This document shows positions 6,454-39,021 of a DNA stretch of 64,000 nt, piece after piece. Where the stretch lies: positions 186,001 through 250,000 of the forward strand of contig NZ_JAUSSH010000005.1 in assembly GCF_030812255.1 (NCBI RefSeq), given 5' to 3'. Numbering within the stretch: position 1 is the first letter of the stretch; every line of letters starts with the position of its first letter. The DNA comes from Paeniglutamicibacter psychrophenolicus (GTDB lineage: Bacteria > Actinomycetota > Actinomycetes > Actinomycetales > Micrococcaceae). The position numbers and the translations under genes were made by a program. The notes under the pieces are model-generated. The model was not told where the DNA came from. It searched no databases and saw nothing but the letters and a program-made list of their open reading frames with translations.

Positions 6454-7108
6454 GGGTTTTGTTACTTGCCCGGGACGATCAGCGCCGCGGCACCCTTGCG
6501 GGCCGCCTCGAAACGCGCCGAGACATCGGCCCAGTTCACGATGTTCCAGAACGCCTTCACATAGTCGGCCTTCACATTCACGTAATCCAGGTAGAACGCG
6601 TGCTCCCACATGTCCAGCATCAGCAACGGGGTCGTCGCCACCGGCACGTTGCCCTGCTGGTCGTAGAGCTGCTCGATGACCAGCTGGCCACCCAGGCCCT
6701 CAAAGCCCAGCAACGCCCAACCCGAGCCCTGCAGGCTCATCGCCGCAGCCGTGAAATGCGCACGGAACGCGTCGAACGAGCCAAAGGCGTCGTCGATCGC
6801 CGCGGCCAGCTCCCCCTCGGGCTTGTCCCCGCCCTCCGGGGACAGGTTGTTCCAGAAGATCGAGTGGTTGGTGTGCCCGCCCAGGTGGAACGCCAGGTCC
6901 TTGGACAACTTCGGGATATTCCCGAACTCGCCCTTCTCCCGCGCCTCGGCCAACTGCTCCAGGGCCGTGTTCGCCCCGGCCACATACGCCGCGTGGTGCT
7001 TGGAATGGTGCAGCTCCATGATCCGCGCCGAGATGTTCGGCTCCAGGGCCGCGTAGTCGTACTGCAGCTCGGGCAAGGTATAAATAGCCAAAATGACTCC
7101 TCATTCTC
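6454..7108. repeat. 655-bp direct repeat, copy 1 (superoxide dismutase ORF)
   Basis: This segment equals 38367-39021 at a constant offset of 31,913 bp. Identity holds wherever I compared bases, and translations of several frames agree throughout. It starts 8 bp past the sod stop codon and ends 17 bp before the start codon. The flanks differ from the first base on both sides. Confidence 0.93.
6462..7091 (-). CDS. sodA: superoxide dismutase (Mn/Fe type), copy 1
   Basis: A 209-residue Mn/Fe superoxide dismutase that converts superoxide to O2 and H2O2. The metal ligands are visible: His28, His76 (HTNHSIFW), Asp160 and His164 ([11 protein letters not shown]). GGHTNH and the Gln of LQGSGW (residue 121) are typical of the Mn-type group, though metal use cannot be read from sequence alone. 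Translation starts at TTG, 5 bases after GAGGAG. The gene lies 57 bp behind the SoxR-linked flavin reductase with no obvious promoter between, so it may be cotranscribed with it. An identical ORF sits between whiA and gap. Confidence 0.97.
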
Positions 7109-7148
7109 TTGTTTCAGGGGATCCGGTGCCCGGTTTTCCGGGAGCCGG

Positions 7149-7667
7149 TCAAGCGGTGAGGCGTGAGTGCTCACCAATGCTGTGGTAGCCGCGCCGGTGG
7201 TAGACCAGTGGCGCCGCCAGGGATTGCCCGCCCATGACCTCGAGGACCGAGGCCACCACGATGGTTGCGGGGCCGGCGGGGACCCGCGACTCGATCTCGC
7301 AGCGCATGGCCACTCCGAGGCCGTGGATCAGCGGTTCGCCGGTGGGCAGGTATTCCCACCCCGCCAGCCTCGCGAAACGTTCCTCCCCGGGACCGGCGAA
7401 CAGCGCCGCGACATCGGCGTTGCGGTCGGTGAGCAGGTGCACCACGATGGTTCCGGACTCCAGGATGGCCGCGGCGGCGCCGGAGCTGCGGGCGATGTTG
7501 AAGGCCAGGTAAGCGGGGTCGGCCGACACGGAGATCAGCGAGGAGGCGGTGATGCCGACCGGTCCGCGGGATCCGGCCGCGGTCACCACGGCAACGCCGG
7601 CGGGATGGTTGCCGAAGGCAAGGCGAAATTGCTCAGCAACGGTGGCGGCCGGAAAATGGGTCTGCAC
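7149..7667 (-). CDS. flavin reductase family protein
   Basis: A 172-residue split-barrel FMN-binding protein. AFGNHPAGVAVVTA, GITASSLISVSADPAYLAF and the late HRRGYHSIGEH are typical of the flavin reductase (DIM6/NTAB-like) family, which supplies reduced flavin from NAD(P)H or passes electrons to partner oxygenases. Start is GTG 7667; no in-frame ATG keeps the fold. A SoxR-type promoter lies 65-95 bp upstream, making this the prime SoxR target. The sod gene follows 57 bp downstream, with a CCCGG-TTTT-CCGGG hairpin (7129-7142) in the gap. Confidence 0.9.
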   Translation of the reverse strand: MQTHFPAATVAEQFRLAFGNHPAGVAVVTAAGSRGPVGITASSLISVSADPAYLAFNIARSSGAAAAILESGTIVVHLLTDRNADVAALFAGPGEERFARLAGWEYLPTGEPLIHGLGVAMRCEIESRVPAGPATIVVASVLEVMGGQSLAAPLVYHRRGYHSIGEHSRLTA

Positions 7668-7731
7668 GGCGGGTGGAGGTTCCTCTCATCACGGGGCCCG
7701 TGGCGGTGCCGCGGGCTGTCCTTTGCTCCCC

Positions 7732-7762
7732 ACGCTAGAACCTCAACCTTGGTTGAGGTCAA
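7732..7762 (-). promoter_or_regulatory. SoxR-box promoter of the flavin reductase/sod unit
   Basis: On the minus strand -35 TTGACC (7757-7762) and -10 TAGCGT (7732-7737) are separated by 19 bp, the over-long spacer used by MerR-family activators. The spacer holds a perfect 18-bp palindrome (7741-7758, CCTCAA...TTGAGG), the same outer half-sites as the E. coli SoxR box at soxS. The -35 overlaps the TGA stop codon of soxR. Confidence 0.85.
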
Positions 7763-7780
7763 ATTTGGTTGAGGTCAAAT
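7749..7780. repeat. 16-bp tandem duplication at the soxR 3' end
   Basis: TTGGTTGAGGTCAAAT occurs twice head to tail (7749-7764 and 7765-7780). The first copy contains half of the SoxR operator. The second forms part of the soxR coding end, so the last residues (FDLNQI) and the stop codon are made from operator-derived sequence. Confidence 0.9.
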
Positions 7781-37094: not shown

Positions 37095-37121
37095 GTGACT
37101 AGGTTATCCGAGTCTCGGGGA

Positions 37122-38135
37122 CTAACCGAGCCGGGCGCCGACGTAATCGGTCAGGTCAACCAGGCGGGTGGAGTAGGCCCACTCGTTGTCGTACCAGGCG
37201 ACGACCTTCGCCGTGGTGCCGATGACGGAGGTCAGGCCGGCGTCGAAGACCGCGGAGTGCGGATCGTGGACGATGTCGGTGGAGACCAGCGGGTCCTCGG
37301 AGTACTTCAGGTAGCCCTTGAGCGGGCCCTCTTCGGCGGCCTTCTTGAACGCGGCGTTGATTTCCTCGACGGAGGCCTCGCGGGCCAGGTTCACGGTCAG
37401 GTCGGTGGCCGACCCGGTCGGGACCGGCACGCGCATGGCGTAGCCGTTGAGCTTGCCCTTGAGCTCCGGGAGGACCAGGCCGATGGCCTTGGCCGCACCG
37501 GTGGAGGTCGGGATCATGTTCAGGGCGGCGGCGCGGGCGCGGCGCGGATCCTTCTTGTGCGGGGAATCCTGCAGGTGCTGGTCCGCGGTGTACGCGTGGA
37601 TGGTGGTCATCAATCCGTCGACGATGCCGAACTGGTCGTTGAGGACCTTGGCGACCGGGCCCAGGCAGTTGGTGGTGCAGGAGGCGTTGGAGATGATGTG
37701 GTGCTTGTCGGCCTCGTACTTCTCGTGGTTGACACCCATGACGATGGTGATGTCTTCCTTGGAAGCGGGCGCGGAAATGATGACCTTCTTGGCACCGGCC
37801 TGCAGGTGCTTCTCGGCGTCGACGGCCTTGGTGAACAGGCCGGTGGACTCGATGACGACGTCGACGCCCAGCTCGCCCCAGCCCAGGTGGGCGGGATCCT
37901 TCTGCGAGAGGACCTTGATGCGCTTGTTGCCGACGACGATGTAGGCGCCGTCGACGCTCACGTCTTCTTCCAGGCGGCCCATGATCGAGTCGTACTTGAC
38001 CAGCATGGCCAGGTCGTTGATGGATCCGAGGTCGTTTACTGCAACAACTTCGATGTCTGCGCGGTTCGCCAGGGCTGCTCGCAGGAAGTTGCGGCCAATG
38101 CGTCCGAAACCGTTAATGCCAACACGGGTAGTCAC
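37122..38135 (-). CDS. gap: glyceraldehyde-3-phosphate dehydrogenase, type I
   Basis: A 337-residue NAD-dependent enzyme. The Rossmann motif [15 protein letters not shown] and AVNDL are followed by the catalytic Cys153 (SNASCTTNC), then [20 protein letters not shown] and the late [11 protein letters not shown]. Start is GTG 38135, with AAGGAGA 8 bases upstream. The 231-bp upstream gap to the second sod repeat holds two hairpins and probably the gap promoter. Confidence 0.97.
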
Positions 38136-38270
38136 GTGTATTTCTCCTTGACAGAGTGGTGTTGCCACTGCCGCGGAAAGAGGGCCCCGGGGTTGGGACA
38201 CAGAAACGGAGTGGCTTGGAAAAATTGGACACTCCGTTGTGTCGTCAGCTGGGTGCTGACCGGGTTTATG

Positions 38271-38362
38271 CGTGTCTTGCGGCTGATGCCGCAAGACACG
38301 CAAAACACGTTGTTTCCATCGTACGCCACTTGGGCGTTCGATGTGAGGAGGCTTACGCCTCC
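38271..38362. other. two hairpins between sod copy 2 and gap
   Basis: A perfect 13-bp stem with a 6-base loop lies at 38271-38283/38290-38302 and a 6-bp stem GGAGGC-TTAC-GCCTCC at 38347-38362. The second begins 4 bp past the repeat boundary. Neither is followed by a T-run on the minus strand. They may terminate sod transcription or structure the gap leader. Confidence 0.6.
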
Positions 38363-38366
38363 ACGG

Positions 38367-39021
38367 GGGTTTTGTTACTTGCCCGGGACGATCAGCGCCG
38401 CGGCACCCTTGCGGGCCGCCTCGAAACGCGCCGAGACATCGGCCCAGTTCACGATGTTCCAGAACGCCTTCACATAGTCGGCCTTCACATTCACGTAATC
38501 CAGGTAGAACGCGTGCTCCCACATGTCCAGCATCAGCAACGGGGTCGTCGCCACCGGCACGTTGCCCTGCTGGTCGTAGAGCTGCTCGATGACCAGCTGG
38601 CCACCCAGGCCCTCAAAGCCCAGCAACGCCCAACCCGAGCCCTGCAGGCTCATCGCCGCAGCCGTGAAATGCGCACGGAACGCGTCGAACGAGCCAAAGG
38701 CGTCGTCGATCGCCGCGGCCAGCTCCCCCTCGGGCTTGTCCCCGCCCTCCGGGGACAGGTTGTTCCAGAAGATCGAGTGGTTGGTGTGCCCGCCCAGGTG
38801 GAACGCCAGGTCCTTGGACAACTTCGGGATATTCCCGAACTCGCCCTTCTCCCGCGCCTCGGCCAACTGCTCCAGGGCCGTGTTCGCCCCGGCCACATAC
38901 GCCGCGTGGTGCTTGGAATGGTGCAGCTCCATGATCCGCGCCGAGATGTTCGGCTCCAGGGCCGCGTAGTCGTACTGCAGCTCGGGCAAGGTATAAATAG
39001 CCAAAATGACTCCTCATTCTC
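38367..39021. repeat. 655-bp direct repeat, copy 2 (superoxide dismutase ORF)
   Basis: Matches 6454-7108 in the same orientation. Immediately outside, the sequences diverge (left: CACGGGGG... here versus TTTTTCGGG... in copy 1). No insertion-sequence ends, target-site duplication or integrase gene is seen around either copy. Confidence 0.93.
38375..39004 (-). CDS. sodA: superoxide dismutase (Mn/Fe type), copy 2
   Basis: The protein is identical over all 209 residues to the copy at 6462-7091, including ligands His28, His76, Asp160 and His164, the TTG start and the GAGGAG ribosome-binding site. It lies 93 bp past the whiA stop and upstream of gap, in a conserved housekeeping block, so this is plausibly the resident copy. 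Its upstream DNA has no SoxR-box palindrome; a small TCCGC/GCGGA hairpin lies near 39067-39082. Confidence 0.97.

Follow-up and report, generated by a model that had tools for sequence, protein, structure and literature searches.

How does a bacterial genome come to carry two copies of one gene that are identical to the last base and yet stand at two different sites? The question is raised by a 64,000 nt stretch of Paeniglutamicibacter psychrophenolicus DNA (positions 186,001 to 250,000 of contig NZ_JAUSSH010000005.1; hereafter the window), which contains two copies of sod, a superoxide dismutase (SOD) gene, about 32 kb apart. At site A the order of elements is soxR, a perfect predicted SoxR operator, a flavin reductase gene and sod; at site B it is whiA, sod and gap. 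The evidence set out below makes it very probable, in our judgement, that the pair is old, and that the copies at the SoxR-linked and whiA-sod-gap sites have been kept near-identical by recurrent homologous gene conversion. The pattern is that of concerted evolution, for which gene conversion is the most likely route.

Base-by-base alignment of repeat copy A (6454..7108, minus strand) with repeat copy B (38367..39021, minus strand) gave 655 bp in direct orientation with 0 mismatches. Each copy consists of a ribosome-binding site, the sod open reading frame (ORF) and 8 bp more. The identity ends 17 bp before the TTG start codon and 8 bp after the stop codon, with zero extension on either side, and flanking 50-bp blocks of the two copies match at 5-16 of 50 positions, which is about chance. 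An earlier, sequence-only reading of the window had described exactly this extent and this immediate divergence, and the alignment bears it out. The two ORFs, sod A (6462..7091, minus strand) and sod B (38375..39004, minus strand), are identical, and each encodes 209 aa from a TTG start. The product carries both domains of Fe/Mn SODs (PF00081, PF02777); no equivalog assignment to the Mn or the Fe type followed, since the three NCBIfam equivalog models that match all score below their cut-offs. A scan of the window for direct repeats of 40 bp or more (seed 20) found this one family and no other, and gave no inverted repeat pair of that length. The 4.57 Mb genome holds exactly two DNA matches to the repeat, both on one 273-kb contig.

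Relatives show how old the two sites are. In 14 of 15 genomes of the same genus (that with Paeniglutamicibacter, the present genome included) we found exactly two full-length matches to sod, which point the same way and are separated by 28-45 kb. The neighbours are the same in all 14: a MerR-type gene and a flavin reductase gene precede copy A, and copy B is flanked by whiA and gap. In the one remaining genome, a draft that is 88% complete, soxR and its box are on a contig whose end falls within the 5' end of sod. Among the matches listed for our family sample of 395 genomes, two sod matches were found in 14 genomes of this genus and one in 361 of the 381 others. Outside the genus, homogenised pairs at sites A and B recur in g21 (G034, G060) and g30 (G068, G135, G160, G286, G333); in G034 the copies are 828 kb apart and differ at 5 of 615 positions. 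One further genome (G273) has a site B copy plus a sod copy directly behind a SoxR box, and all 15 sod loci fetched from g23 are at site B. Shared synteny of both copies in the genus, in g21 and in g30 places the duplication before speciation.

The sequence-only reading had offered two histories: a very recent precise copy, or continuing gene conversion between paralogues. A very recent duplication of the sod ORF in this strain would readily give 0 differences over 655 bp and abrupt repeat ends, and from this one genome it could look attractive. Since the orthologous sites are already occupied, with conserved neighbours, in all 14 genus genomes that have full-length matches and in other genera besides, we reject it as next to impossible. 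The conversion half of that proposal gains from the same relatives, in which the distance between copies within a genome is far below that between genomes.

That comparison had been suggested in the earlier reading, and running it in the 14 genus genomes gave a clear result. Copies A and B of one genome differ on average at 3.3 of 627 bases (range 0-19), and are identical in seven genomes; between genomes, A-A and B-B comparisons each average 68.1 differences (91 comparisons each, range 0-108, some of the genomes being close relatives). At third codon positions sod differs by 1.1% within genomes and by 24% between them. Selection on the nucleotide sequence itself, through expression or codon use, could in principle keep two copies alike without exchange, and the SOD protein is conserved in the genus (94-100% identity). 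The third positions, near-invariant within genomes and free to differ between them, refute such codon constraint unless it is specific to each genome, and we hold it to be as good as excluded. The between-genome third-position difference of sod is close to that of gap (25%), with whiA at 31%, soxR at 44% and flavin reductase at 50%. A topology in which the 14 site-A copies form a single clade was rejected (p-AU 0.00019, dlnL 590; the constraint left 7 sets of identical rows free). Beyond the coding region, exact identity without gaps reaches 0-25 bp upstream and 2-12 bp after the last sense codon, stop included, and the next 100 bp match at 16-33%. The sharp ends of the repeat are thus ends of homology, and no special mechanism is needed to explain them. 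Upstream remnants occur in both directions, with A-type sequence at site B in G010 and G014 and B-like sequence at site A in G000, G003, G005, G007 and G009.

Given that identical repeats are involved, an assembler might have written one consensus into both copies. Drafts do break or join at the repeat (G100, G208, G011, G021), so sod counts taken from drafts can be wrong; G011 seemed to have none. Against an artefact, genomes assembled as one contig (G007, G010, G013, G034, G641, G696 and others) have copies that are equally near-identical, most of them with a few differences; G007, G010 and G013, all from the genus, have the same two loci as the window. We therefore reject this explanation too, as highly improbable. 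Some draft records deserve mention in their own right. G100 (L127, L228, L229) has soxR and flavin reductase upstream of sod and gap downstream of it. Either the assembly was joined across the repeat or a genuine crossover took place; a join is favoured, and we set the crossover aside because another contig of the same draft ends inside sod. Four drafts (G021, G208, G217, G279) each have two 5' parts of sod on their contigs, and G021 and G208 also have two 3' parts; split parts of this kind at contig ends suggest that near-identical pairs have collapsed in further genomes too. Under the title Vibrio cholerae strain 35D, one record (L062, L076; WNZI01000070.1, WNZI01000004.1) contains Arthrobacter-like sod regions with sites A and B, and looks mislabelled or contaminated.

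Homogenisation might also proceed by repeated cycles of tandem duplication and loss of the 32 kb, through unequal crossing-over between direct repeats, rather than by conversion. The direct orientation and the 28-45 kb spacing throughout the genus would suit such cycles; homogenisation is also seen in pairs separated by 828 kb (G034) or by over 1 Mb (in Brachybacterium), and we regard this route as very unlikely. For the same reason we dropped proximity as the driver of exchange: far-apart pairs show that short spacing is not required. The sequence-only reading had raised loss or amplification of the intervening 32 kb as a further consequence of the repeats; neither was seen in the 14 genus genomes. 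The reading had placed suf, cta and pentose phosphate genes in the interval, and family models agree: eight of ten ORFs scanned there matched a model, with sufC, sufD, sufB, heme o synthase (ctaB), transketolase and zwf above cut-offs. tpiA and pgk match parts of one bifunctional model, below its cut-off, and gap lies in the interval as well. Given this content, a cell that lost the interval would probably not survive. As to a mobile element as the source of the second sod, the reading had reported no transposase, terminal repeat or target duplication. We likewise rejected a mobile element, because the window has no further repeat of 40 bp or longer and the scanned neighbours are ordinary genes; shorter terminal repeats and target-site duplications were not searched for separately.

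Recurrent conversion would leave the two sites with one coding sequence and different surroundings, and the regulatory surroundings of copy A are distinctive. The soxR gene (7759..8271, minus strand) encodes a MerR-family activator that scores 200.2 bits against TIGR01950, above the curated cut-off of 116.9, and carries the [2Fe-2S] cysteine motif C-x2-C-x-C-x5-C (CIGCGCLSLAEC); every MerR-type neighbour listed for the relatives carries the iron-sulphur cysteine motif too. The flavin reductase gene (7149..7667, minus strand; PF01613, 114.5 bits) lies directly upstream of sod A. Directly before it is the predicted SoxR operator (7740..7759), a perfect palindrome with 7-bp arms and a 6-nt centre, which on the minus strand falls between a TTGACC hexamer (7762-7757) and TAGCGT (7737-7732) with a spacer of 19 nt. 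The call at 7740-7759 uses what we take to be the SoxR operator consensus and the 19-nt spacing rule. The exact pattern CCTCAAN6TTGAGG occurs once in the 4.57 Mb genome; allowing up to two mismatches gives 2 matches in the window, 1 of them exact, where shuffled sequence gives 0.11 on average. Genome-wide, it is found in 12 of the 15 genus genomes at one or two sites each, and its backward control in three of the 15 at one site each. A second SoxR above the cut-off is encoded elsewhere in this genome (G000:C7:155734-156150), and second SoxRs occur in 6 of the 15 genus genomes.

Copy B stands between whiA (39097..40146, minus strand; TIGR00647, 346.5 bits) upstream and gap, the glyceraldehyde-3-phosphate dehydrogenase gene (37122..38132, minus strand; TIGR01534, 444.6 bits), downstream. 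Our scan found no terminator-like site at A and three at B against 0.8 expected, one of them on the sod strand downstream of sod B (38243-38228). Just downstream of sod B and before gap there is a GGAGGC/GCCTCC hairpin-like element (38347-38362), present whole or in part at site B in several genus genomes and with no match in Rfam; a tRNA was the sole match of the Rfam search. That each copy uses a different promoter, as the sequence-only reading had it, fits these surroundings, with A behind a predicted SoxR-type promoter and B between whiA and gap.

The box marks one copy of the pair throughout the family. At site A in the genus it is exact in 11 of 14 genomes, and in all 22 Micrococcaceae pairs a SoxR box (at most 1 mismatch, within 1 kb upstream) is present at exactly one copy, with no second box at the partner copy even at 2 mismatches. 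As a control, the reversed pattern was run on 141 loci; with one mismatch allowed it matched 0 of them, and with two it matched 4. Among 32 pairs from outside the family, the box is at one copy in 19 (at most 1 mismatch), appears only at two mismatches in 5 and is lacking in 8; it is never at both.

These pairs come from samples of 395 family and 396 order genomes, and all pair counts depend on the matches listed. The 54 genomes with usable pairs were picked for having two listed matches and are not a random sample. In the family outside the genus, 20 of 381 genomes had other than one listed match, of which 8 gave usable pairs and 12 were dropped (fragments, split genes, partial second matches). 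Outside the family, at least 48 genomes had two or more matches and 32 pairs were usable; five genomes were dropped as fragments or single full copies (G433, G469, G549, G597, G611), and others were left out (G402, G458, G493, G543, G586, G616, G622, G624, G712, G751, G752). Loci L001 and L002 duplicate L017 and L003. In 37 of the 54 pairs the two copies are closer to each other than to the sod of any other sampled genome; Micrococcaceae contribute 20 of their 22 pairs, and the pairs from outside the family 17 of 32. The two Micrococcaceae misses, G012 and G013, have nearly the same sod in both genomes. The 17 homogenised pairs outside the family comprise 11 in Brachybacterium, 2 in f8 and 4 in f12, and a Pfam scan of the f12 neighbours found little. 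Family f16 differs: in each of G479, G557, G708 and G716 one copy is in a flavin reductase-sod arrangement and the other in a whiA-sod-gap arrangement, with A-A distances of 0.11-0.16, B-B distances of 0.09-0.24 and A-B distances of 0.22-0.28, within or between genomes. In these four genomes (few families were sampled) the copies group by site and are not homogenised. Differences between A and B are clustered at p<0.05 in 8 of the 22 genomes tested (G006, G008, G496, G551, G606, G649, G665, G728), and G008, G496 and G606 remain after correction for 22 tests. The clustering fits partial conversion tracts in some genomes.

Several observations pull against the account of an old pair kept alike by conversion, with SoxR at one copy. 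In the genus, three genomes (G001, G004, G008) have no exact box and carry one with 1 mismatch instead. A sigma-70-like promoter was found at neither copy in a scan limited to 16-18 nt spacers. Outside the family, 15 of the 32 pairs are not closer within genomes; 13 are clearly diverged (22-30%), and G460 and G551 are borderline. There, too, the box reads away from sod in 7 of the 19 pairs that have it, all in Brachybacterium, as judged by the promoter hexamer. Significant clustering of differences is absent in 14 of the 22 genomes tested, which lend no support to conversion tracts. Lastly, outside the family 10 of 17 homogenised pairs have the box (at most 1 mismatch), as do 7 of 13 clearly diverged ones and 0 of the 4 homogenised f12 pairs; as a predictor of homogenisation the box fails there, and SoxR control therefore does not explain homogenisation outside the family.

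Within these bounds, we envisage two ancient sod sites that persist while recurrent conversion, presumably RecA-type and homologous, re-copies one onto the other and the flanking DNA drifts. SoxR would induce copy A, so that the whiA-sod-gap site may provide a steady supply of SOD and the SoxR site a redox-triggered one. To judge from the two upstream regions, one enzyme under two controls is the likely arrangement. Fe/Mn SODs are oligomers, and mixed subunits could be costly if the copies diverged; both copies may persist because two inputs feed one invariant oligomeric enzyme. We tentatively propose, at somewhat less than even odds, that Micrococcaceae have one SOD with two promoters, one constitutive and one under direct SoxR control, whose coding sequences have been homogenised by conversion and by selection for a uniform oligomer since the two-site arrangement began. 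If true, SoxR would directly control superoxide defence in actinobacteria, and regulation and coding sequence would have evolved separately within a single pair of genes. The locus is a specific candidate for a SOD that SoxR controls directly in actinobacteria. Matching sites hold homogenised copies in one family and copies that group by site in four f16 genomes. This contrast is a replicated natural experiment and makes the cause of concerted evolution (uniform-enzyme selection, conversion rate or regulation) testable.

How does the pair compare with known systems? In Agrobacterium tumefaciens, SoxR can induce the sod paralogue sodBII, which would set a precedent for direct control; the species belongs to a different phylum, and homogenisation with a housekeeping copy is not known there. 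Among the matches listed from titles and abstract openings of the open-licence literature, none dealt with bacterial sod genes evolving in concert, or with a SoxR box next to sod in an actinobacterium. Arthrobacter genomes are described with up to two sodA copies and with soxR in the absence of soxS (PMC4326396, PMC3534580), and SoxR was hypothesised to act directly on the superoxide response in Antarctic Arthrobacter (PMC4326396); unlike the present analysis, the available text of these papers gives no operator, soxR-sod linkage or concerted evolution. The non-enteric SoxR regulons of Streptomyces likewise involve a SoxR family protein, there with few direct targets. According to the text available for that study, putative non-enteric SoxR targets encode no typical oxidative-stress detoxification proteins, whereas the box here leads into flavin reductase and sod (PMC4146615). 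The closest evolutionary parallel is a survey of 26 prokaryotic protein genes, tuf and 25 others, with long-lasting concerted evolution (PMC6053082). sod is not among the genes as given there, neither "superoxide" nor "Micrococc" appears in the main text, and one sod copy here, unlike those genes, has a predicted redox-sensor operator. In other respects the likeness to the genes of that survey, as described in its text, is close: two syntenically distinct copies, silent-site similarity within genomes, recurrence in at least five species and losses to a single copy in some lineages. By the measures used for tuf, the sod pair is closer within genomes in 20 of 22 Micrococcaceae, with shared synteny and silent-site similarity. 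The sod pair thus adds a gene to an evolutionary pattern already known, and in one family its regulatory surroundings are split in an unusual way.

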